64,000 bases of DNA from Ectocarpus siliculosus. Taxonomy: Eukaryota; Sar; Phaeophyceae; Ectocarpales; Ectocarpaceae. Both the position numbers and the translations under genes were made by a program. Where the stretch lies: NCBI GenBank assembly GCA_000310025.1, contig FN649747.1, forward strand, positions 1,989,478 to 2,053,477, read 5' to 3'. Under the pieces are notes generated by a model. It had not been told where the DNA came from and ran no database searches. It worked only from the letters and a program-made list of their open reading frames with translations. Positions 19,465-54,270 of the stretch are shown here, piece by piece (the first letter of the stretch is position 1; the number at the start of each line of letters is the position of its first letter).

Positions 19465-22400
19465 CTACCGCAGGTTGTGCATGCTCGACAACGACCCCGC
19501 GCCGCCGCCGCCGCCGCCGCCGCCGTGGCCCGCCGCCTTCCCGCGGGCCTTGGCGTTAGGCGGGGACCCGAACATGTCCCAAAACCTCAGGGTCTCGTCG
19601 GCAGCCGCGGACACGACCGTCGAGCCGTCCGGGGAGGTGTCCATGTGCAACACCCTGCCAGGTTGTTCGATTGTACATACATTAGGGTCAATGACACATG
19701 TCAGATGCCGGTGGAATGAGGGAAGGACCGTCATTTTTTGCGGCGTGAGAAAATTAAGGAAAGAGAAGGGTCAACAACTAACAGGAGACACCGAAAAAAA
19801 AAAATAGTTAGATAAAAAGGACCCCAAAGCCGTGTGGTTGTTCCATTCACTGGAAGCGCAATCATCCTCCGGAGATATTGCAGCGGAACAAGTTAAATAG
19901 CCGCCGGAGGCTTGGAATGGGGTTGATTCTGCAGAGGGGGGGGCTCCGTGTGACCGATGCAAACCGTGGGTGTACTCCCCTTGATTCACGGCGGCAACGT
20001 ATCCTACGCTTGTCGTCGTTTGGACACCTACGATCTGCTACATGCGTCCAGAGCACACACATACACGTGCACGCACAAGCATCGTCCCGTGGAGAGGGCG
20101 CCCCTGCGTACATTATTACTTATGTTCCCAAGGAGTAGGACGGGGTGGGAGCAAGTCACATACATATATCACACCTCGACGTGTGGCCCCTGAACTCCTT
20201 GATCTTGAGCATGTTCGGGTACTTCCAGAGGCACAGCTGGTTCTCGCTGAAGCCGTGGGAAGACACGAGCTCCTTGTTGTGCCGAGACCACTGAAGGGAA
20301 CACACCTTCGCTCAAAGACAACACAAGGGTAGCATGCATGCGTGCAAGCCGTAGACCCGGGTTAGGATGATCGGGGTGCAGGACTCGCGTGGAAAGCTCC
20401 AAACCCCACGTGCACACAGAACGGAGGCAACCACACCCACAGGGATGCATGCCTACCGCTAAGGATGGTTGGGATGGTTGGGATGGACGGGACGTACAAG
20501 GCTCGCGTGGACGGAAGAGCCCGACATCACACGCACACACACAGAGCAGAGGAAGGAGGCCAAGCCCAAACGACAGCAGCGATGACGCACGCCGAAACGT
20601 ACAAGTGGAGAGACGGCCCTACCTAATTCGCCTCGCTAGCTGGAAGAAAAAACACCAGCGAAAGCGTTCATCCACGCGACAAAGTCGTAATTAGACGCCG
20701 CTATGTACATGCCGGAGTCTGGTGCTCTGCAGCACGGGCACGTCAGTCGCTCGGAATACCTGGCTTCCGGTGTCGACGGAGTTGAGCATCGCACCGTTCG
20801 CAGTGTTCCAGAACTGCGGTACAATTGTGGGGCGGAACAACAGTGTGATTGGTGGAGGGAGTCATGAAGGAAAGAATTTTTTTTTAGCACATCCACCAGG
20901 AAGTAGACGCGTGCGTGCATGAGTGTAGACAGCTGGGGTCGGGAGAAATACTCTGGGTTGAATGATTCCTGATGACCCAGCAGAAGGGAAAAATAAACGA
21001 GGATAATACGGCACAGTAAAAAAAAGTGGTACGGTAAGGCGTTATTTCGGACCACACCTGATGACCGACCACGCGACAAAAAACACACGGAAGGACGTAC
21101 TGTGGGCAGGCAGTTCTGAAATCTTAACCGAGGACAGCAGTGCCATACAACCCAGCCACCCCCACACACACCTTGATGGTCCGGTCAGCGGTGCCCCCGC
21201 CCGATGCCAACAAGTGCCTCTGGGACGGGCACCACGCCAACGCCTTCACCGCCGCCTGGTGCTGCACTAGGGTCCTTCGAGGCCTGTGGACAGGGGACGA
21301 GCGGCCGCCGCTGCTGCCGCCACCGCCGCCACCTCCTGCTCCCCCCCTCCCGCTCATGCTGGCGTCCCACAGGCAGAGGAAGTTCTCGTTGCCCCCCGAT
21401 GCGAGAGTGTTGCCGTCCGGCGACCACTTCAGTCCGCACACCTGATGCCGGTTGTTTGTGCAGTTTTTGCATTTCGTCAATTTGGAATTGAAAGTGACCT
21501 AGAAGATTGTGGGTCGAGAGCAAGCTGCCTTCGGCAATACGCACCAACTGATGGCTTTAGCATTTTTGTGACCACGGGCCGAGTCTTTGCTAGATTTTGG
21601 GATTAGCAACTGACATGAGTTTAATGTGAAGAAAAACAACAACAACAACCAACATTGTTGGAAACGAAGCGTCGCCCGACAGCACTCTCGATCTTGACTC
21701 AACTCAACAGCTGCACATAACACGAAAGACGCACCGACCACTACACCGCACGCGCGAACTACACCTCTACACAAAAACACCATGCGACGGGTATTGCATG
21801 TCCAGCTTACCTCCTGCTCATGTCCCGTGAAGGTAGCCATCTTGTGGTTGGGCATCCTGACGTCATGCTGGATGATGCTGCTATCCCTGGAGCCCGAGCT
21901 GAGGACGTGCCGCTTCCAGGCGAGGGTGCCCACGCGGGCCGAGTGACCCGACATAGTCCGAACCTGAAAACGAGAACAATAGCGACACGACGGTAATAAA
22001 ATAAAGCGAGAAAAAGACCAAAAAAAGGGGGGAGATGACGGTAAAAAAAGAAAGCAAGACGACGATAAGAAACATCATTAAAGCAAGACAGCGGAAAAGA
22101 AAGAAACACAACGCAAGACGACCGACCTAGAAAAAGAAAAAAAGAAGCGACTCGTCGTGATCGAATGAGAGGTCAGGCATGGCTCGATTCTAATGGACCA
22201 ATGAACTTGGCAGCAACGCTGGTACGATATTTTAGGAAGAGAGTCGTCGTCATAAAAAAGACAGGCCGACGTCGTTGGAGTCTCTGATTGGTCAACCAAC
22301 AGGAGGGGAGAAGACAGATTTTTTCCTGCGCCTCCTCACACACAATTCACGGAAACGAGCGAGAACAAAAGTAGCAAACGTAAACGTGTCAGATCCGACG

Positions 22401-27044: not shown

Positions 27045-30000
27045 ATGTTCTCCTCCAGCGTCATCCGACGGGGACGCTGCTCCCTGGCCAGGCCACCCGC
27101 TGCAACGCGTTGCAAAGTGATAGTAGTAGACCGAGGTCAACCACAGACCAGCAGGAAAGGTCAACAACATGCGGCGATCCATCGGTGTCCCGCAGGTGCA
27201 GCCGCAACAGCACCGCCAGCTAGAGGCGGAGGGGCACCGTCTGGAGAAGCAGCGGCGGGAAAGGTACAGGGAAGCATCGCTAGTTGCTGCGGGACGAAAC
27301 ACAATCTAGTGCTTGGGCCGGGGATTAAGCAGCATCAATATTTTCTGTCGGAGACCACCGGCGGGACTGTCAACTGGCGACGGCACGCATCGACGCTGAG
27401 TCGGGGCGACAACTGCTGTCTCTCGCTGCGACCAGGGGCCGCTTCGTCTGCGTTGCGCAGCCGATCCTTGCAGACTGGTGGGCCCGCTCTTCAGCTAGAT
27501 AGGCGTGGTTTCTCAGCTGGACAAGGGCCCGACAGCGATCACGATGGCGGTTACGAATATGACTACAGCAGCGGCGACAGCGGCAGCGACAGTGAGTGCG
27601 AGTCTGAGAGTACGCTTTTCGGGGCTAGCAGCGGGGCAAAAACGGCGGCGAAGACCGAGGAGGCAGGGGCACTGACAGCGGTGAAAGAACCACCGGCGAA
27701 GAAGAACACGAAGCCCAGAATACCGCGCAACAGACGCGGTGGGAAAGGCGAGAGGAACCCCTCTCCGACAGAAGCCGTTCAAGCGGTAGCAGTAGCGGAT
27801 GGGGATGCAGGAACACCGGCACCGTCACCCGAGGCCTCAGAAGCACCGCCAAAGAAGGCCCCAAAGGCCAAAACCCCGCGCAAAAGACGTGGCAACCAAG
27901 TCAAGAGGAACCCCTCTCCGACAGCAGCCGCTCAAGCGGCAGAAGCAGCGGACGGGGAAGAAGCAGGAACAACAGCAACCGAGGCCGCAGCAGACCCACC
28001 GGCAGCGAACAAGGCCCCGAAGGCCAAAGCCCCGCGCAAGCGACGTGGCGGCCAAGGCGAAAGCTCCCGCTCTCCGAACGCTGGACCCAAAGATGCAGAG
28101 AGAAAAGGTGCCGCAGCAAATGCGGCGGAGGCAGGAACGGACCCGAGAGTCCCCAAGGAGAGGAAGGCGTCGTTCGAGCGCGCGCGACGTGCGGGCGTAG
28201 CCCGAAGAATCGAAGAGGGAGGGGGCGTTCCGCGGGATAGTGATAGCGGTAGCGGCAGCGGTAGCGGCAGCGAGGCCGACTCGGGCGGCGAGGGAGACGA
28301 GGGCAGCGTCCCCGACGAGTCGCCCTTTCCGTGGAAGGAGGCAGAAACGCCTCCTTTCACCTGGCAGGACCCGGATGCCCCCGTCGTTCCCAAGCCTTTC
28401 CTGGGGGGAAGCGGCGCCGACGGCGAGAAGGGCGGGGCGGCGGCGGGCGCGGAAGCGAAGAGCACCGGGGGCGGTGGCAAGGCAAGTTCCTTGGCGGCGT
28501 CTGATTCGTCATCATGTGTACGTATCGTTGTGGTGGCAAACTAGCTCTTGTGGCAGCATTTGGCCTTGGCAGCATCTACGCGTGGCACCTGTAAGCTTGC
28601 AAAGCCGTTTTCGATTGACAGGATCGAGGGGAGACTGACTATCTGTGTTGACAAATGGTTGGCAGTTGGGCGGATGGCCCACTGCATGTTCCAAAACGGT
28701 GTTGCATTTTGAGAAGGCCTACGATACGATGCACGGGTGTTTCCAGCGAGAGTAGTGAACACGCTGTCATGAATCCAGAGTGTAATGCCCCCTGAGCTTG
28801 ACGCCAAACGTCTCAACCCGTTGAATTAAGCTTCACACACTGCACACCGACGTTTCCCGTATTTCTCCACCTCTGGTGGTCTACATGTGTCACAGGTAGT
28901 TTTGGTTACTTCGTCGCATGTGTTTCATGATTCACTGCAACTGTCGTAGCGATCGACACTGGTCCGTCTGTGGGATGGCTTTTTCCCCACGCCTTTCGTT
29001 CGATGGCACGGACCATCGGTGTTGATCGCTCAGCAATGTACGCGCTGTGTTTGTGAAGAAGGACTCATTCGTTTTCATTTCGTGCAGCTGTCCCAGCGAG
29101 CTTCCAGCGTCTGCGTACCGCCAACCCCGTTGGTGGGGGCCAGTTCCTTCGCTTGCTGAGAGAAAGCTGTCATGTCCATTTTTTTTTCGAATGCACACAC
29201 CGGGATGGCCGTCATCAACCCCGATTTTTCCTGCTACGACATTCCCCAGATACCACGCCCCCCCCCCCCGCCCGCCAACCCGTCTCCAGTCTACACGAAG
29301 AAGAGGTCAGCGCAAGAAGACCCAACAGCAGCAGCTGCAGCTGCAGCAGGAAGAGCACCCAGTGCTGGGATGCTTGGTGGCCGACCTCAAGTACAAGCGC
29401 GTGTACGTGTCGTCCTTGGAGGCCCTGGAGAAGGTGCGGGTGTGGGAGGAGGCGCGGACTCTGCGGCCGGTGCACGCGGCCGAGATCTTCGAGGGCAAGG
29501 CGATCGAGGCGCAGAAGCTCGAGGTCAGGCGGGTCAAGGAGGACGGCAAAGAAGAGAAGGACGAGAATCTGGTATGTTCAGATGCTATGCAATTTGTTGT
29601 GCACGGATGAATGCCTGCTTGTTTGTGTTTGGTTGGCTGTAGATGTGTTTGTTGGTCGGCTTGATGTTTGCCCGTGCTGCACAACAACGTTTGATTTGCT
29701 GTGCTCGGGGACGTATTTTACTGGCTCGTTTGCTTTCTGCGTTCGCGCGTGGCAGTCCTTCTCTTGCACGTTTCTGCTGTATTTTGTTGCCGCGTGTAGA
29801 ACCTGCTTGTTAACGTTGCGGGCAGCCCGTTGCTTGTTGTTGGTCTCTCGTATTATTTACTCCTCCTTCTGGGCAATGCTGTCGTTGGAACAAGCCTTTG
29901 ACGTGTTTGATGCAGTCGCCCCGCGTCTAGAGCACAAACGAGTTGATGTGCCTGATTTCGCTTCGCTTAGACCCTTTTCGCTCGATCGGATTTTGGTGTG

Positions 30001-33000
30001 CCTCGAAACCAGCATAGTCGCGTAAACCTCTGGCCGACCATTGAACAGACGTCAGTACCAGTGCGGTTGAAACAGAAAGTGCTTCTAAAAGGCGTTGTGT
30101 GTGTGCGCATTTTGCCCATTCTTTGCGAGACAGGTGGCGAAGGGCATGCCTGGAGTGATATCTCTCTACCGACGGCCGCTCTTGCCGGTAGGTTGTGTTA
30201 ACGCATCGCTGGGGACGGCGGCCTAAGCTGTCCTTCCGCTGGTTTTCCGTGCGGTTATGCGGGTGGTGCTGGTGTCTTGTTTTGTTGTGTCATGTCTTTG
30301 TACAGATCAAATCTCGTCGTTGGAACGACGTGGTTGTGGTCGTGGTACAAGGCAAGGCCCACCGTCGTTACTGGCACGGAATACCGAGCTTCCGTCCCGT
30401 TGCCGTTGAGTACCACGTTATATGAACACCTCACCAAGAAGCCTAACGGACCTACGGCGTTAGCAACACCATCCCAGGCACGTCACCCCCCGGTACACTT
30501 ATGTTACAGCTGCGGCGGTGCCCCCTCTGTCGCTTAGTGTATACCTACCCCATGTACAACTGTTCCCTTTTTGTCTCAGCCTTTGCTACCGCCGCCGCTG
30601 CCACGGGAAGCTGACGAAGAGAAATCCATGACGCATGTTCACCGCTGTTGTCTTTTTTTTCTCTGCCGTCGCTGCCGCCGCCGCTGCCACGGGAAGCTGA
30701 CGAAGAGAAATCAGCAGTACGTCTTGGGGGTCGTCGATGGGCAGCACCGCCTACGGGCGCTGAAGATGCTGGCGGACGCGAAGATGTGGGACCACTCGGA
30801 GCGGAACGTGGTGGTAGAGGTGTTCGACGCCAAGGACGAGAGGGACATCGAAGAGCTGTACGCGGAAATCAATAGGCGAGAGAGAAGAGAGCCCTACTGT
30901 ACCCTTCCGCCGCAGTGAATTTAGGCACCTCTAGCAGTGAATGGGAGGATATGAGCAGAGGAGTGGCGCTCCCGTCTGGCGTTGGAGCAGTCGTTTCTCA
31001 CCGTTGGTGTAACTGTACACAACAGTCGGCATGGCATTTCCTCAACCACCCAGGTGTGCTGTGAGTGCAACTGTTTTTGAGGAGTAGGAGTGAAAAGGGC
31101 AGCGGCGGTTTTAGTGGAACGTACTTGAGTATCGATAAGTAGTTGTTGTTGTAGAAAAGTACCTTACCAAAGAGGCCTGCTCGGCTATGCGGATCAAACT
31201 ACGCCCCGTGATTCACTGCAATTGGTTGGACTTTGTTAAGGCTCTCCTTACAATCAAGCCCGCACCAGAGGCTTCACGGAAGACAAGATCAATTGCTGGT
31301 ATAGCCAGTGGCTTGGCGCGTGGAAAAAGAAACGAGAATGACCGTTGGTTGATTCTGATCGATGCCACGGGGGAACCTAGGTACCCTCGCTTTAGCCAAC
31401 AAGCCATGATGGTAGGCGTAGGGCATGAGGTAGAATAGGACATAACAGCAGTGAGGACTGGAAAATGCTGCTCTGGCAGTGTCCTGTTCATGGGTGTGCA
31501 GCAGCAGCATGAGGGGGGGGAAACCACCCGCTTCACAACGTTCGCGGCTCCTCGCTCAACGCACAACACATGATGGAAAATTGTGGCCGTGACACAGCAG
31601 CAAGCTTGGAGGTGTACATGATTGCGTGTCTTACTCGAATTGTTTGTGCATGTCCCTCTCGAGTCTGCCATCCCCGCGTTGCAAAACGCTGCCGACCCTC
31701 TGCCTTTTGGAACACACCAAAACGTGCTGATGGTAACACCGTTTGCCAACCCGTGTTTTGTGCGTTCCGCGTTTTGTCACTCTTCTTTTTTTTCTTGTAT
31801 TTGTCCCGGCCAGGGCGGAGCCGGTTCAAATCGATCTAGACATACCAGGGCCGCAAGAGGTGTACAAGTGCGCCGAGGAGGTTGTCCTTCACTTGTACAA
31901 GGTAAGGGGGTCCCAACAAACAGGTTGATGATTTGCGGAGCCCCGCCCTGGCAAAAAAGTGGTGAACACTACATGCAACACCGCGTAGGATACTCAACCT
32001 TGGGTTATCGCATCGCTCCCAACAGCGGTGGCATGCTCGGAAGTTCCTTTTCGCGAAACGAACGGGAGTCGCACACGAAGAGGCTGAAAACATTCTAGTC
32101 TTGTTTCCTTGGTTTTGGTTGTGTTCGCTGAGCTGATCCTGTTTAGTGCTCTACCGCCGAAGTGTTACTGCACAACAGTAAATCTGTGGTGGCGAGGACG
32201 GGGCGGGTGCTGCTCTAGGGCGAGTGCGGCACACTCTTGGGGGCTGCAATTGTCTGCGTTCCCCTGAGGACCAATGCAATAAACAAACTCGATCCCGTCA
32301 TCCTGTCTGTAGAACAGCTCGTACTTGCCACTAACGAGGATTTCACGCACATGGAGGAATCAAGAGGTGTGGTTCAACCCTGGCCGGAAGAGGGACATTC
32401 GTTAGTTGTTAAAGGGATTTGTTTGTGAACGGTGGGGTTTTGCACCGTTCCAAGACGGCGGCAGACTGCCTCTGCTATGGCGACTGATCGTTTCCAGTCG
32501 GCGTCGTGTTGTTCGGCATCCGAACGTCGGTCGCCATTCGTGTGTATCGATTTTTTTGTAGTATTTCACGTACTGAGGGCGAATCGTGACAGCCTTTTGA
32601 ACTCTCCCTTGTTTTTCGCTTGTTCGTTACGATTTTTCTCCCTCTTTTGGTGACGATGAACATCAATGGCCTTTGGCCACGGCGCGCCTTCTCCACCACG
32701 ACCACGCCCAGCAATTCCGGCCCATGTTTGGGGGCAAGAGGGTCCGCCCGCCGACCCTGAACGCCATTGTCTTCCGTGAGAACGTGAGGGAAAACGCACC
32801 GTGCTTTGGGTTTTGTTTTGGTGTGTTTGATTCGCGTTTGGTTGGCTCGCTTCGCTCGGCATTGGCTTCCTTATTTGCTTGGGGGGGTGGGGGGGGGGTA
32901 GCGCCTGCTGTTTTCTCGCAGCGAAGATTGTGGGTTCGAGTTGGCGTCCTTGACAGGGATATGTCTTGCGCAATAGTGCTAGCGCGTCTCCCTTGTTCCT

Positions 33001-35989
33001 CGCGGTCGACTTTCACGACAAACGTCTAAGTAGGAGACATCGATCGAGGCCCTCGCTGGCTGATAGGCGGCGTCGCCTGGTTCTTCCGCCACGTAGAGCA
33101 TCGAAAATACCCACGGGCCGGTCTCTAGATCGCGACCTGCCGGTCCTACCGGTTCAACCGTACTGTAACCTGCTCTTGTCGCTGAACCTGACTGGTACGG
33201 CGCGGCGTGACCCAGCTGCCGGAAGGTTTGCTCCGCATGTCCGTGCTTCCCCATTGACTTTCCGCCGTATGTACGCCGTAAAACGCTTAGGCCAACCTCA
33301 AACACCGACGCCAACGCCAGTTGGTGGGTAAAAGGCGTTATTTTCCGACACAAACTTACCGGCCTCACCCTCGCGACTGCCTCTCACCCTCTGTATACGA
33401 AAACCGGGACGCTTGCTTGTCCCAATCTTTTTTTTTTTTGCGGCTCAGTTGATAAGAACCGGGTTGATCGAGCGGCACGAGCTGTTCACCCCCCACCTTC
33501 TCCTCGACTTCCTGCTGAGGGTGAACGAGATGATGTCCAGGCGGGACGTGCAGACGTGGGCGCTCATGGTCGGCGACGAGGAGGGCTGCTATGTGAGCGG
33601 CCACGGCAGCACTAGTATTTTGGAATTTTTTGGTAGATGTGTTCAATAAGTCGCGCCGACTTCGGTCGTTTTGCAGGCGCTATATACCTACCTTGACTTC
33701 TTCGTTTGGCAGTTCCAACGCGGGGTCACATTAAAAGACCCCCCCCGCATTGCGTGCCTTAACTCGTTCCTTGTCCCTTGCGGCGTGTTGTGTAAGACAA
33801 AGCTCAACTCTTGTCGCCGAGTGCACGCGTTGTAAGGGAAGCGCCTGCTTGCGCTGACTCTGTGTCATCGCGCAATGTGCATGTTGCAAACCTCGCGTAG
33901 TCTTTAATCAGCAAGAACATCCCCTCCGAAGAATGCCACGCCCAACCTGCTCAACCTCTTGTTTTAGGAGTCCCTGCTAGTGCGCGGTTCGTCACCTGCG
34001 GCCGGCGAGGCTGTCAGTTTTCCATGTTCGATTCGTGAAAAATATGCACTTGTAGATATCATGGTCAAGGGTTTGCTAGACAGAAGCTTTCGGGGTTGGC
34101 GCTCGGTAAATGGCACATCAAAACGGTGTGGTCAGTCTGGCGTCTCGAGTTCTCTTCTCGAAAACACATGGCCCCGTGTTGGCGACCGCGACGCAGTACC
34201 AGAACTCGTGAAGCCAAATCCCCCATCCACTCTCGACTGGACTACTGCTGTCTTGAGCAGATGGAAAATGAATAGGAAAGGGGACGATAAGTGGTAAACG
34301 GTCACAATGGCTAACGTAAATCAACACCACATGAGTGCCCCCCCCCCCCCCACCCCCCCCCAACTTTTTTTTTAACCCCCCCTTTTCCCTTTCTTTTTTT
34401 TCCTCCCTTTCCCTTTCCTACCCCCCCCCCCCCCAACTAAAAAAAAAAAACCCCATTTATTAAACCCCCCCAAAAAACCAAACACCCCAACTTTTACCCT
34501 TCCAAAAAAACCAAATTCATTCTTCTTTTAAACAAATAACTCACCAAAAAAAATTCCCCTTATTTTTTTCCCCCCCCCCCCCCCCCTATTATCAACATCC
34601 TCCCCCCCCTTTTTCGGGTTTTTTTTTTTTTTCCTTTTTTATTTTTTCCCCTTTTTTTTCCTTTTTTTTTTTTTTTTTTTTTTTCCCCAAAAAACAACGG
34701 TTTTTTAACTTTTTTTTTTTGTTTTGAAAAACTTTTTTTTTTCCATTTTCCCCTTTTTCCTTTTTTTGAAGAATTTTTTTTGGAAAAGCCGTTTTTTTTT
34801 TTCTTTTCCAACCCTTTTTTTTTCTGTGGGGGGAGGAGGTCAATTTCTTTTCTTTTTTTTTTTTTGTGTACCCCCCCCGGCCCCTTTGTGTTTTGTCCCT
34901 CCCCCCCCGCCCCCCATTTTTTTATTTTCTTATTTTCGGGTTGTTTTTTTTTTCCACAACGCGGTTTTTTTTTTTGGCCGTTTCCCCCCTTTTAACCCCC
35001 TTCCCCCTTTTTTTTCCCCCTTTTTTTGGAAAATTTTTTTTTTTTTTTTTTTTCAGGGTTTTTTCCCCTTTGGGTTTCTTTTTTTTTTTTTTGGCTTTCT
35101 TTTTGGGGCCCCCTTTTGTTTCCACCCTTTTTTGGGCTTTCGGGGGGGGGGGCCCTTTTTTTTTTTTGGTTTTTTAAATTTAAAGGGGGGTTGAAGGGAA
35201 GGTTTCCCCCCCCCCCCCCTTTTTTAGAAAGAGCCACCCCGGCCCCCCCCCCTTTTAGTTTTTTGCGTTTTTCCCAGGGGGGGGGGGGGCGGCGGTGGGC
35301 TTCGGAATTCAAAATGGCCCAAAACCAAGAAAAAGAGAGAGACGGGGGGGGGGGGGGAGGGGGCGCGGAGAGAGACCACACAGACACAATCATGTCACCG
35401 AGTGGGGGGGCACGCGGTTCCAAGGGTGATAAAGCACGAAAACTTTGTTTGTTCGAATCCAAATCGCGCTTGGTCTCGCAACCCACGTATCCGAACGCTT
35501 GCCCCGGCCGCTACACGTCCATATCTTCGTCACGGGCCATATCACCCTACAGTACACTAAATATTCGACAATACTGCAGAACGAGCCACCACTTTAGAAC
35601 CTGTTTTTTTGCCGAGGATTCTGTTTTTGTCTATGGGGTACTGCACTGTGCCCCTGACGGCGACTATGTAAGTGTTGTGTGCCCTTCTTGACTGAGAACC
35701 TGTTCTTGTTGCGGACAAGGTCCTACAGCAGTAGGTTATGTTAGGCTCCAAGTTGCGGCCAAGTTCTTACTGCTTTCTACACCGTTGACGGCGTGTCGCA
35801 GGCGTGGTGTGCTGGTTGTCGGCCGCAAACGCCCTGATCTCCCTGCGGATGGGGCTGTGGACGAACAGTCTTCTGCTGTTTGACGCCGAGTCGAAGCTGG
35901 TCGGCCAGAAGCGGTCAACCTTCATCCCGGCCCCTGCGTCGTTCCGGGAGTGGTTCGGCCAAAACGACGACAACAGCAGCCAGCCCTAG
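27045..35989 (+). CDS. DGQHR-domain protein with basic repetitive N-terminus
   Basis: The model is 27045-28481, 29290-29571, 30715-30875, 31814-31901, 32712-32783, 33449-33592, 33968-33986 (19-nt micro-exon, tentative) and 35802-35989, about 796 residues. The core reads YVLGVVDGQHRLRALK, then IEELYAEINRAEPVQIDL after splicing, then QFRPMFGGKRVRPPTLNAI. This is the DGQHR signature with its EIN-x-AEPV partner, a fold related to ParB/DndB and best known from bacteria, phages and large DNA viruses. Exon 2 (RVYVSSLEALEKVRVWEEAR) resembles the segment preceding DGQHR. Exon 1 is low-complexity: an Arg-rich start that might be a transit peptide, acidic Ser runs, and three ~50-residue repeats with PRKRRG-like cores. 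Introns 1 and 3 need GC donors. The exon 3 start could also be 30580 or 30697. The link from exon 6 to exon 8 crosses poor sequence. No function is known to me for the nuclear protein. Confidence 0.72.
27690..28100 (+). repeat. Coding tandem repeat (3 units of ~153 bp)
   Basis: Within exon 1 of the DGQHR gene, three units begin near 27690, 27843 and 27996. Each codes a PPAKK/PPKKAPKAK segment, a basic PR(N/K)RRG core and then NPSPTxAxQAxxxADG. The third unit is degenerate after the basic core. The PRKRRG cores resemble AT-hook-type or nuclear-localisation basic patches; this is resemblance only. Confidence 0.8.
30591..30712 (+). repeat. 36-bp direct duplication at an exon border
   Basis: GCCGCCGCTGCCACGGGAAG plus CTGACGAAGAGAAATC occurs at 30591-30626 and again ending at 30712, offset by 86 bases. 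The second copy abuts the DGQHR exon. Three phase-0 acceptors are available (30579, 30696, 30714), so the true exon 3 start is ambiguous. Confidence 0.85.
34330..35330. other. Low-quality homopolymer stretch
   Basis: About 1 kb consists almost only of C, T and A homopolymer runs with little normal sequence, unlike anything else in the window. Open frames through it (poly-Phe or poly-Lys) are artefacts. It lies in the last intron of the DGQHR gene and could hide an exon. Confidence 0.85.
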
Positions 35990-37700: not shown

Positions 37701-44779
<7,079 letters not shown>

Positions 44780-45104
44780 ACTTCAGGCCTTCTTCCCTAT
44801 CACCCCTTTCGCTGTGTTCGGAAGAGCTCTGTACCCCCCCGAATACAGATTTCCAGCCGACGGGAGTGCTCTCTCAACGCCCCTTGTCTGCCTACGGCGG
44901 GAGATCTCGTGACAGATCAGCAGAAAAGCGCGGTGTGCTTCTGGGGAGCAACGCGCGCAAAATCAAGCACAACTCGAGGCAAGTTGATCGTCTCTCCTCG
45001 TGTCTGTTGCTCGGTCCGTTGCGTCTTGTGCTCGGCTCTTGCCTTCTCTCGGCCTCGCTCGCTTGCTTCCGCCGCAAGGGGTCCCGCAAAATATATACAG
45101 GTCC
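44780..45104. promoter_or_regulatory. Divergent 5' region between RPT4 and the DA1-like gene
   Basis: Only 325 bp lie between the two start codons. The sequence is GC-rich with pyrimidine-rich patches. An AAAATATATACAG string lies at 45088-45100, just 5' of the DA1-like ATG. That is too close to serve as a TATA box for that ATG, and it could instead be the acceptor of a 5' UTR intron. I recognise no proteasome-type control element with confidence. Confidence 0.6.
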
Positions 45105-46674
45105 ATGGGAATACCATCGTCGGGTGCTCCGGTTGTGTCGGTGACATCACCAGTTCCGGTCTTTCCGCACACCGCACACAGGGCAGTCGGTCAGTCAGCC
45201 ACACAAGCCCGTCTTCATCAGCTGGACGCGCCGTACTTGAAGATGGGAACAATGAAGGTTTTCTTGGAGAACATCCGCAGCATGGCGCGGAGCCCTACGC
45301 AATACAACCGGACTCAGCAGGAGAGAATAGTAAGAGATGTTATTTATGCAACGTGATTTTGGAACAAGCAGCGGAGTTCGTAGCAAACAACGCACTTGCT
45401 GCTGCACCGCTTCAACCGCCAGAGAGCTTACTCCCGTTGTGAATCTTGAGGCTTTCCCGGAGCTCTGAAGCTCTTCGTTCGTCGTGAGAGTTCACTAAGT
45501 CGTGAACCGTTGGTACCGGCTTCACGCCCCGCCGTATGTGCCCCTTGCTGCCTTGCTGTGATGTGTGTCCTTTCGAACCCCGAACACCCAGCATTCCGTA
45601 TCCAGAGGTGGAGCGGTGTTTCATTGACACCATACTTGTTGTCTTAGTACTGCTGTGGTAGATATTTCGTGTAACAACATGCGAACTTTCAACGATAGAA
45701 TTACCCCAGACCACCAGTGCTTGTTCCTCTCTCACCACACGCGCCCGGGGCTGCCGTAGCCCTGCAACCATGCACCGGCCTTGTTGTATTTCGGACCCGA
45801 TGATTTCATCCTAGATCGACTCTGGCCCCTTAGTCTGTCGATACATACCCCGTAAAGTATCCCGAAAAATTGTTCGCTTTTTTTGATCTTTTTCTTTCAT
45901 GTCAGTCACTTCGGAATCAAGCTCTCCTATAGATTTACCAGTGATTTGCTCGTAGTCTAGTCTACGATCACGTCCTTGCCTGCTAAACCTAAAAACCAAT
46001 GAATGAAAATTCAAACACCCCCATAATATGTACACTCAAGTTTGAAAGCATAGGAACTTGAAACAGGACAACACAGCAGTAGTCATGCAGCCACTGCAAC
46101 AGAAAAGGTCGAAGGGTCGAAGGGCCTGTTGGCCTGGACTGTTGAAGAGCCGCCTGAGCGCGGGGTTTCTTTTTTCTCGTCATTATCGTACGCTTCCAAC
46201 TTCTATTTCTCCGAACCAATCTCGGTGCTACTGCATGCATGTGCTTCCCGACGCTGTGTGCTGCGCTCAGGCCTCTCAGGAAGCTGAGTTTGAAGCTGCG
46301 GTTGCCGCCTCCCTCGTCGAAGCTGGTGGTTCTGGCTTTCCGGTGCTGCCTGCATCAGGTAAGATCTAGATTGTTCTGTGAGAGCAACGGCGGTATTTTC
46401 GAGCATCGGATCAGGTTGATTTGTGGCTTGTATGCTGCATCTAAACATAGAGTGGAGAGAGAGAGAGATAGAGAGAGATTCGGAGGGCCTGGACAGAAGA
46501 GTGCAAATATGTTACGGCACTACTCCGAAAGTCATCGCCATCGCCACTACCGCCACCACCACCGACAATGTTGTAACCACAACAGCTTTTGTTTTATTTA
46601 GTCCTACAACTGTGCCTAATGTCAAGTGCGGCATAATATCTGCTGTACAACAACGTTGCGAGCAGTTGCTCATG

Positions 46675-50601: not shown

Positions 50602-53600
50602 CAAAGAGAGAGCGAGCGATGCTTGCTTCTCACGTGGGCGGGTTCAACTGGGAAGACGGCGCGCGCAGTTGGTGCCCTTTCATGGCCCCCTCCCTGTCTT
50701 CTTGTCTTCCCCACCACCTCTTGGATTTCCAACGTCAATTGTGATAGGCATACGCTCTTTGCGATTGTTTGTTATCAATCTCGAGACGTGTCTCACATGC
50801 TAATTCTTGGCATGCGATGCGAATGCTCTTCTTTCTGTCCTCGAGTTTGGTATGCCGCGGGGTGTGTGTGTCTGAAATGGCCCTTTTATCTTGACCCTTC
50901 TACAAGACATTTATTCTTGCCCGCTAAATCCCCCCCCTCCCTACCCCCGGGAATGCTATCGACAGTGGCCAGGCGGCGGGATCGGTCGCATATCGGGGAA
51001 ACGCCCTTCCGCGCCGGGTGTGCGCATTTGCGCGGGCTGCTCGATGCCGATAACCGACGCTGTGTTTCGCCAGGGTGCCATGGGGGAGAGTTTCCACATG
51101 GGCTGCATGCCGGGAGGAGAGTCGCCCCTTCCCGCCTGCAAGGTGGGCTGCTGTTGTTATACCAGTGGTGTCCGTAGTAGTAGCAGTAATAGTAATAGTA
51201 GTACTATAAGTAGAAGCCGTCGTTGGTGGCGATGTTGTCGCCGACTTTTCCTTTGTGGAGAACATCATTTTCAACCTAAGGCACTCCATTAACCCCGCGG
51301 CACTTCGGAGGTTAGCTTGTTACTCCGAGTCCAAATGTACATGATCTTGGTACAAGCAGTAACGGGTTCGGTGTCGCTGTTGCTGTTGTTGTCGTTGTTG
51401 TTGCTGCTGCTACTGTTGTTATTGTTGTTGTCCTAGTCGTCGTCGTGGTTGTTCTTGCTGTCGGATATGTTGTTTTTGCCGTTATGCCCTTGAGAAAACC
51501 GGTACCCTTGCTCCCTAAACATGATCAGGTGTGCCATGAAAGGCTGCCTGCCCAAGACGGGCGGGTCCACTTCTACCGCCACAACTTCTTCCACGAAGTG
51601 TACTGTCCATGGCATCACGACAGGTGCTGATGTTGTTTCCTGCTGCAGCTGCTGCTGCTGCCGCTGCTGTTGAAATCCTCCGCCGGTCCCCCCACCCTCA
51701 CATCTCGTGGCCCACGCGCCACGTTGATGATTGGACAAGCAAGTATGTGAAGCTTTTCATGACGAATCGACACGGTCCTCATCTGCGGTTGTTGTTGTTG
51801 TTGTTGTCCTTCGCGCACCTCCCCCCCGCTGTCACAGCTCGCCACGGTGCTGCAGCTGCATGCGGCTGGAGCCCATGCCACATCCACCAGGAAAAGGCGG
51901 GGAGGGACCGTTCGCAGAGCTGTCGGACGGCCGAATGCTGTGCATGGCGTGCGCACAGGTACATATTGCATGCTTCCGACGGGGGGGCGTAGTCATGTAA
52001 AACGCATGCCGTAGTCGTTAGACCGTTGACCTCGCGTTCCTACAATGCCGGGACGGAGAGATGTGCAGGGTTTTCGCCGGCCCAGGCTACGTGGCACAGG
52101 GGTGGACCAGAAGTTGGCCATCGACCTTGCTTGGGGGACGACGTTAGAGGTCACCCTAGCGAAAACCGCGCCCATGTCGTTCTGTTTGGAACGCTCCCTC
52201 CCTCGGCAGCGCACGTGGGTGTATCATATTTAAGAGCTACTTCCCGTCATTTGGAAAACGATGTCATCCAAGCGATCAAACCCGCGACATCTCCAAATCA
52301 ATCCTGGCAAGGATGCATTCACTACTGTACAATGCGAAGAGACTAAACTAAAGGTGCGATAATTACGTTGGCCGGAAAAATGAAGACCTAGTTTTGGGGC
52401 GGGGGATACACGTAGGCTTTATTGACCATTTCTTCGAGACATGTACCCTACCCTCTCCCGGTTCCGCCGACAACCCGTTAGACATACAAACATGCTCTGT
52501 TTCGCCTGTCTGTGCAGGCATGCGAGGCATTCTCAAGGCTACATGCCTCTGTCTTGGCTTTGCAGTGCATGCGAGACAGTCCTAGTCAAGGCCATGGACG
52601 GAAAATCATGTACATTGGTGACGACCCCCCCTCCCCCCCCCCTAAACCGGTCCGTCTCGAAAGGGACGCGTGGTCAATGGTCAAATGACTACGGCAAGCA
52701 ACAAATGAGTACGCCCCCCCCCCCCCCCCCCCCGGGGGGGGGTAAACCCTTTGGTGGTGGGTTTTTTTAAAAGGGGGGGGGGGCCCCCCCCAAGGGGGCC
52801 CGGGGGTTTTAGGNNNNNNNNNNNNNNNNNNNNNNNNNNNNNNNNNNNNNNNNNNNNNNNNNNNNNNNNNNNNNNNNNNNNNNNNNNNNNNNNNNNNNNN
52901 NNNNNNNNNNNNNAAAAAAATTTTTTTTTTTTCCCTTTTGGGGGGGCTTGGGGGGCCTTTTTAAAGGCCCCACCCTTTTTTTTGGGTTTCCCAGGCCATG
53001 GGAAAATTTCTTTTTAAGGCCCAGGGGGGAAAAAATATTACCTTGGGGGGGGCCCCCCCCCCCCCCCCCCCAAAACCGTTCCTTTTTAAAAGGGGGGGGG
53101 GGCCAAGGGTAAAAAAATTCCGCCAACCAAAAAAAAGAACCACCCCCCCCCCCCCCCCCCCGGGTTTGTGTATACCCTTGCGGTGATGTGTTTTTCAGAC
53201 GGCGGTGGTGGACTCCTCCGAGGGGGCCCCGGCGTTTCAGGAGGTGTGCACGTTCTTCGAGAAGGTGCTGAACTTGCCGGTGTCCAACGAGATGCGGGGA
53301 TCTCCGGTCCTGGTTGTGGTGAGTTGTTGCCTTTGGAAACTGTCGTGTCGCCGGCGTCGTGTTCGTTGTGGAATGGTCGGTGTTAAATGTTGTTGATGAT
53401 GAAATGAAAAAGTGAAAATATGCAGCGCTCTCTCGCTTTCCCTTTGTTGTACCACGGTGTGCCCCAACGACTGCACCTTTTTCTTTTGTTGTGTCAAGGG
53501 GAGGAAAGGCCAAGGTTCCTTACCCCTTCCGCCTGCACTGATGAGCAGCACCGCGGGTGAGGCGTGGGGGTGGTAACCGGGCAGAGCTGTTTAACACGTA

Positions 53601-53902
53601 CCACATGTTGAGCGTAGCGTACAACAACGCACCAAAACCGTAACAACAACGCACCAAAACCGTAACAACAAGAACGGCGACAACGCCAACGGCAGCAGCG
53701 GCTGCTGCTGCAGCAGAAGTAGCAGCAGCAACAGCAGAAACAACGGTAAGGGACCACGTCTTGAAACTTAACCCGGTTTTCCTCCCCCTACTCTCGACCT
53801 CCTGCTCTTGCGCTCCCTCTCCCTCCCTCCCTCCCTCCCTCTCTCCCCTTTCTCTCCCCCCCTCTTTCTGTCTGTCTGTCTGTCTCTGTCTCTCTCTCCC
53901 TC

Positions 53903-53933
<31 letters not shown>

Positions 53934-54270
53934 ATCTTGGTCTCTTCTCTTTCTCGCAGGACTCCCCCACTCTGAACGAACAGACGCATCTGGACCAGAA
54001 GCACGGCGCCGGTTCAGAGAAGGGCATGCCTACCACGAGAGGGCTAACTCTGTCAGAGGTGCTTTTGAATCCGAAATCCTAACCGTCGGTGTCTCTCTTG
54101 TTTACCTAGCTTCGCCATCGTGCTTTGTACGAGTCTGGTTGTTATCGTTGTTGATGATGACATTTACTTAAGCTCATGTTGTTGTGCATGACCATGTTGA
54201 TGGTGTTGATTCTGTTGTGTTGTTTCATGTCCCAACGGTGAGAAAGAAAACAAATTTCCGACTGAAGTTG

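Follow-up and report, generated by a model that had tools for sequence, protein, structure and literature searches.

A putative intron-containing nuclear gene with a DGQHR motif in the brown alga Ectocarpus siliculosus

In the literature examined here, DGQHR/DndB-like proteins have been investigated as components of DNA-modification and defence systems in bacteria. The occurrence of a DGQHR motif in a 64,000-nucleotide stretch of the Ectocarpus siliculosus genome (contig FN649747.1 of assembly GCA_000310025.1, positions 1,989,478 to 2,053,477; hereafter the window, from whose first letter all coordinates are counted) raises the question of whether this motif belongs to a spliced nuclear gene, how much of the encoded protein is related to the bacterial family and where such a domain may have come from. 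A previous sequence-only reading of the window had proposed an intron-rich nuclear gene and, beyond it, a candidate for an undescribed system. The explanation favoured here, at a probability of roughly 0.55, is a single-copy intron-containing host gene coding for a divergent eukaryotic representative of the DGQHR superfamily (TIGR03187-like, ParB/sulfiredoxin-like) with a low-complexity basic N-terminus, which would act as a DNA-associated regulator and would have arrived by an old horizontal transfer.

Regarding the gene model, a splice-phase check joins seven exons in phase on the forward strand over 27045-33592 (the exon labels skip the number 4, the core exon being exon 5), and the joined exons 1-8 hold no internal stop. 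As had been claimed, VVDGQHRLRAL lies in an open frame: core exon 5 (30715..30875, +), QYVLGVVDGQHRLRALKML...EIN, which bears the DGQHR motif, is open throughout and encodes GVVDGQHRLRALK...EIN, the full frame being QYVLGVVDGQHRLRALKMLADAKMWDHSERNVVVEVFDAKDERDIEELYAEIN. Upstream are a putative exon 1 (27045..28517, +), with the sole ATG of its frame at 27045 and a GTACGT donor at 28518, exon 2 (29290..29571, +), which begins VYVSSLEALEKVR and is a candidate for the N-terminal part of the DGQHR domain, and exon 3 (30134..30187, +; VAKGMPGVISLYRRPLLP), added in the follow-up, in phase 0 with its neighbours and with GT-AG borders. Downstream are exon 6 (31814..31901, +; (R)AEPVQIDLDIPGPQEVYKCAEEVVLHLYK), exon 7 (32712..32783, +; QFRPMFGGKRVRPPTLNAIVFREN) and exon 8 (33449..33592, +; LIRTGLIERHELFTPHLLLDFLLRVNEMMSRRDVQTWALMVGDEEGCY), the latter possibly reaching 33632. 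Every join between exons 1 and 8, including those of exons 2, 7 and 8, is in phase 0 except 30875/31814, which is in phase 2, and five of the six introns are GT-AG. The exception is the intron after the core exon (30876..31813, +; GCGAGA...GGCCAG), a GC-AG intron; splicing at 30875/31814 does recreate the expected EIN-x-AEPV in frame, as EIN-R-AEPV, but from an AG|GCGAGA donor that the sequence-only reading had left unmentioned. The other junction it had singled out, 31901/32712, is borne out by a GT-AG intron in phase 0. Exons 2-8 are coding-like in composition, with a G+C content of 0.56-0.63 and a third-position G+C (GC3) of 0.69-0.92, e.g. 0.69/0.33/0.85 for the three codon positions of exon 2 and a GC3 of 0.83 and 0.92 in exons 7 and 8, respectively; for the intervening introns of exons 1-8 the G+C content is 0.50-0.56, and for the sequence leading up to exon 9 it is 0.47.

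The 3' end is less straightforward. A gene spanning 27045..35989 had been proposed, for which an in-frame ATG at 27045 and a stop at 35987-35989 are indeed found, but the possible last exon (exon 9; 35802..35989, +; GC3 0.89 in the frame read), ending in TAG, is out of phase with exon 8 at the donor 33593 and fits only if exon 8 is extended to 33632, with a GTAGAT donor at 33633, or via an unseen exon; a hidden exon was sought in 33640-35790, where candidates were found, none of them convincing. A viral NS2 family match of a trial exon 8-9 join (Pfam, E 0.11) was taken as chance. The intron before the last exon contains, at 34340-35300, an extreme low-complexity region made up of homopolymer runs, at first of C and T and further on also of G, which could be either a genuine repeat or an artefact of sequencing; bases in runs of at least 5 account for 53% of 34501-35000 and 40% of 35001-35500, compared with a window median of 4%. 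The phase conflict of exon 9, the GC donor needed by the core exon, the absence of any match for the outer exons and the weak coding composition of exon 1 could all be accommodated by a decayed or mis-predicted gene, of which one conserved exon would be left while the rest would be frames open by chance or pieces of a different gene. This is improbable in view of the predominance of GT-AG introns, the uninterrupted frame of exons 1-8 and the composition of exons 2, 5, 7, 8 and 9, which combine a GC3 of 0.83-0.92 with a second-position G+C of 0.25-0.47.

Exon 1 calls for separate consideration. Its frame is open over 524 codons, and a length of 494 was attained by 0 of 2000 simulated sequences matched in first-order composition, the longest being 453; its codon-position G+C of 0.66/0.65/0.61 is weakly coding-like, so that its 5' part may be non-coding. 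The encoded sequence has an Arg/Ser-rich start followed by Ala/Pro/Lys/Arg-rich repeats, among which a basic tandem repeat, KAPKAKxPRKRRG (27723..28058, +), has a unit of 153 bp, i.e. 51 codons, in 2.2 copies with 76% matches. The long N-terminus with basic tandem repeats that had been described is thus present as far as the repeats are concerned, but the coding composition of the exon that would carry it is weak. In the Arg-rich start, MFSSSVIRRGRCSLARPP, seven of the first 30 residues are Arg or Lys and one is acidic, and over the initial windows of the exon 1 protein the hydrophobic moment rises to as much as 0.42, features that would suit a mitochondrial presequence and hence an organelle-targeted protein whose DGQHR domain acts on organelle DNA. 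Such targeting appears unlikely, since the 5' part of exon 1 is itself weakly supported as coding sequence and the KAPKAKxPRKRRG repeats equally resemble nuclear signals.

Over VDGQHR...EIN, the joined protein matches the NCBIfam family TIGR03187 (DGQHR) with an E-value of 9e-5, at 22.3 bits (22.8 bits in the genome-wide family search), far below the curated cut-off of 58.85 bits, and the ParB-like phrog_1033 with an E-value of 0.0014. Two Pfam families match below their cut-offs, namely GmrSD_N (PF03235), with E-values of 0.01 for exons 5-8 and 0.015 for exons 2-8 (15.8-16.4 bits against 33.2), and DndB (PF14072), with E-values of 0.024 and 0.05 for the same exon sets (13.1-14.1 bits against 29.1). 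The window protein gave no match at E<=1 in PADLOC, none to DpdB (NF041060) at E<=1 in NCBIfam or PADLOC and nothing better than E 1 among solved structures, and its exons matched no GmrD/HNH family. The DGQHR pentapeptide, preceded by hydrophobic residues and followed by LxAL, is present; the downstream FxxxN motif is recognisable as YAEIN, with Tyr for Phe and the same spacing as in the bacterial relative L145 according to phmmer and hhalign; the upstream QR pair has no exact counterpart, the nearest being either QK, which when judged by eye is equally spaced from PG(T/V), or RR according to MAFFT.

Alignment with a profile of eight bacterial DGQHR proteins by hhalign gives an E-value of 6e-8, which is optimistic as these proteins were chosen by likeness to the window, with a probability of 94.7; the match extends over residues 97-196, spans the exon 3/5 and 5/6 joins and covers exon 6. 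When the motif is removed, 24 of 2000 shuffles do as well as the rest of exon 5 taken with exon 6, and 46 of 2000 do as well as exons 5-8; for exon 6 alone the count is 45 of 2000. Neither the 25 residues that precede the motif (633 of 2000 shuffles as good) nor exons 2-3 (882 of 2000) or exons 7-8 (595 of 2000) stand out, and no family match was obtained for exons 2-3 or 7-8. MAFFT sets LEKVRV of exon 2 on LGKVRF of the bacterial relatives, within exons that align no better than their shuffles, and exon 3 is aligned with their IPGTVLLF; the aligners disagree on the continuation, since phmmer and hhalign put EIN on the bacterial IIN and MAFFT on a later TRIN. From the shuffles and this disagreement, what identifies the domain is the motif block together with a limited continuation across the splice junction. 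The profile search of the spliced protein therefore supports the DGQHR core above chance but leaves the flanking exons 2-3 and 7-8 unmatched, and the further conserved blocks reported in the sequence-only reading are not upheld.

A genome-contig scan for the pattern [IV][VI]DGQHR[LF]xA yielded at least 588 stretches, at least 14 of which, all bacterial (L145-L158), proved by tblastn to be related to the window core (E <= 1e-3 among candidates). They are 30-40% identical to it, mostly over about 56 residues, the best among the matches listed having an E-value of 1e-6 with 39% identity over core residues 6-61, and their record titles name betaproteobacteria, Sphingomonas, Fibrobacteres/Fibrobacteria, Myxococcales, Proteobacteria and Bordetella. 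All eight relatives scanned match TIGR03187, the first one at 128.8 bits and thus over the cut-off; weaker DpdB and DndB matches were also obtained. No defence cluster was seen by eye in the neighbourhoods of 2 of the 14 relatives, where the neighbouring frames are presumably trpB/trpA-like and ferredoxin/reductase-like, and plasmids gave no match at E<=1. The structure model of a bacterial relative is of low confidence (mean pLDDT 56.7), and a PDB fold search with it returned nothing significant, the best E-value being 0.36 and the ParB-like PadC coming second with 0.40. These relatives, the nearest among the matches listed, lend tentative credit to a bacterial (or organelle-era) transfer from a donor with a stand-alone TIGR03187 protein, a possible origin against which it must be weighed that identity is limited in degree and length, that none of nine stretches was confirmed when genome contigs were scanned with just the window core, that the flanks align no better than chance and that the relatives compared are a bacterial set only, with an alignable block of about 55 residues.

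The other donor to be considered, offered as an example in the sequence-only reading, is a giant virus of the NCLDV type, whose DGQHR protein would have been short, at about 270-310 residues, and would have gained introns and an N-terminal tail later. Among at least 600 stretches listed in a viral-contig scan for [IV][VI]DGQHR[LF], no relative of the window core was found at E 1e-3, and searching viral contigs with the window core returned a single, unconfirmed stretch. The best phmmer score to the joined protein among 203 DGQHR frames from 213 viral or phage loci is 14.4 bits, against 22.8 bits for the best bacterial protein, although the bit scores are not fairly comparable, likeness to the window having guided the choice of the bacterial set but not that of the viral one. 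Two of the 203 viral frames reach higher scores against the bacterial profile (49.5 and 35.5 bits) than the window protein does (21.5 bits). Among the candidates tried, a Vibrio phage match in phage records was rejected (E 0.7), as was the viral stretch L011 from a scan for DGQHR...INxxxP, in which no frame above 100 aa holds the motif. A second viral scan for DGQHR...INxxxP gave eight stretches, four of which (L160, L161, L162 and L165) correspond to real DGQHR proteins; these have 445-458 aa, with VDGQHRK or FDGQHRK and QINKQ(T/K)P, and form a separate DGQHR group. Their IN-x-x-x-P continuation resembles EINRAEP of the window, and they reach at most 4.3 bits to the window protein, L161 and L162 being the same protein. 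Other motif scans (101, 2 and 35 stretches and one further listing) brought up ParB-like DGQHR proteins, none of them close among the matches listed.

A BFVD search with the same low-confidence bacterial model gave 317 matches at E <= 10, five of which are at E <= 0.001 with TM-scores of 0.20-0.36; the matches include two proteins labelled 'DNA-sulfur modification-associated', one of 284 aa from Pithovirus LCPAC304 (E 2.4e-4) and one of 268 aa from Marseillevirus LCMAC202 (E 2.4e-3), as well as a 'putative nuclease' of Tunisvirus (306 aa, E 3.4e-3). Examples of such giant-virus proteins in BFVD are A0A481Z845 and A0A481YWW6. From this listing, giant viruses seem to carry the family and are possible donors. 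The window domain (exons 2-8) comprises 267 residues, nearer to the giant-virus length than to the bacterial one of about 365-380, and the genome holds a giant-virus-type capsid gene: the major capsid family PF04451 has a single strong match at C16:4438430-4438993 (E 2.9e-49), in a 493-aa open frame, judged from sequence to belong to a probable endogenous viral stretch. The capsid gene maps to a different contig, the fold matches put forward for giant viruses have TM-scores of 0.20-0.28 from a model of low confidence, and the motif scans and scores given above offer no close viral relative; domestication of a giant-virus gene is thus considered doubtful.

Within the alga itself, this is the sole locus of its kind found. 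A protein search of the 189-Mb, 492-contig genome with exons 5-8 found only the four exons of the locus, and a TIGR03187 search pointed to one place. A DNA pattern for the motif matched 6 genome places, compared with 5 for the reversed pattern, and the five other VDGQH[RS] pattern matches lack the continuation. PF14072 and PF03235 are without any match in the genome at E<=1, and DndC (TIGR03183) at E<=0.01, so that the undescribed system once suspected finds no support in a single gene and the few families covered. Fifteen NosD-type matches were also recorded in the genome. In a Pfam scan of 20 of the window's longer frames (513 listed), 3 of the 20 match at E <= 0.01 and none matches a viral family. 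A CDC20/Fizzy WD40 exon at 21502-22074 (-), with an E-value of 2.5e-13, is of host cell-cycle type and lies about 5 kb upstream of the first ATG; the two other matches are weak and below cut-off, one to presenilin at 53523-54029 (-; E 4.6e-4) and one of thrombospondin type 1-like character (PF22195) at 44639-45439 (+; E 0.0012). By their family matches, the recognisable neighbours are host-type genes. The DGQHR core, with its NCBIfam match and bacterial relatives, the in-phase joins and these neighbours sustain the proposal of a spliced nuclear DGQHR gene, but not in its outer blocks or its 3' end.

Considering the favoured explanation of a divergent DGQHR member in a host gene, the locus probably adds a new eukaryotic variant to a domain family that is already known, with thin support outside one conserved block. 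By analogy with studied relatives, at every step, the DGQHR loop would bind nucleotide or phosphate and the domain would bind DNA, as DndB does in regulating its operon, so that the window protein probably binds both nucleotide and DNA; the basic repeats could add non-specific affinity for DNA (or RNA) or serve as a nuclear localisation signal. A DNA-associated regulator is preferred to a restriction enzyme because no nuclease family matched the exons. A more elaborate and rather speculative version, for which the odds are low, would have a prokaryote- or giant-virus-type DGQHR regulator domesticated by the alga as a nuclear or organellar chromatin-associated protein, the basic tail replacing lost operon partners, and would make the gene the representative of an undescribed eukaryotic subfamily. 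If the favoured explanation is right, a spliced single-copy eukaryotic relative would be a case of a bacterial-type domain taken into host biology, and the retention of its nucleotide- and DNA-handling activity would become testable; if the locus is a relic, or holds only one recognisable block, it would be of minor interest.

As for known systems, the literature on DGQHR, and on DndB with algae, brought up no eukaryotic gene, judged by titles, and no paper was found that joins DndB with giant viruses, DNA sulfur modification with Pithovirus or ParB-like nucleases with Ectocarpus. The closest family is TIGR03187, with whose proteins the window protein shares VDGQHRLxAL and the 39 residues from DGQHR to (E/I)IN seen in L145, followed by Pro, hhalign setting YKCAEEVVLHLY of the window on HRKFASRMVGALY of the bacterial proteins; unlike the bacterial members, it is eukaryotic and spliced, with a long basic N-terminus, unmatched C-terminal exons and no clear QR pair. 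The DGQHR motif is also shared with DndB (PF14072, TIGR03233), to which the window protein scores below cut-off. In Salmonella, DndB is described as a dimer that binds DNA and regulates its own operon (PMC4507180); unlike in DndB systems, the operon partner DndC is without a match in this genome at the threshold given above. With DpdB, the DGQHR core is shared through the bacterial relatives, the window protein itself being unmatched. More broadly, ParB/Srx proteins are presented as NTPases able to nick DNA (PMC12839542). Finally, GmrS and DGQHR proteins are credited with common QR, DGQ(Q/H)R and FxxxN motifs, a ParB/sulfiredoxin fold being predicted for GmrS (PMC4619093); compared with GmrS and the GmrSD_N family, the window protein has the related motifs, with DGQHR rather than DGQQR, and no GmrD/HNH partner in its exons. 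According to the same source, GmrSD genes have already been reported from eukaryotes, namely diatoms, green algae and Heterolobosea (PMC4619093).
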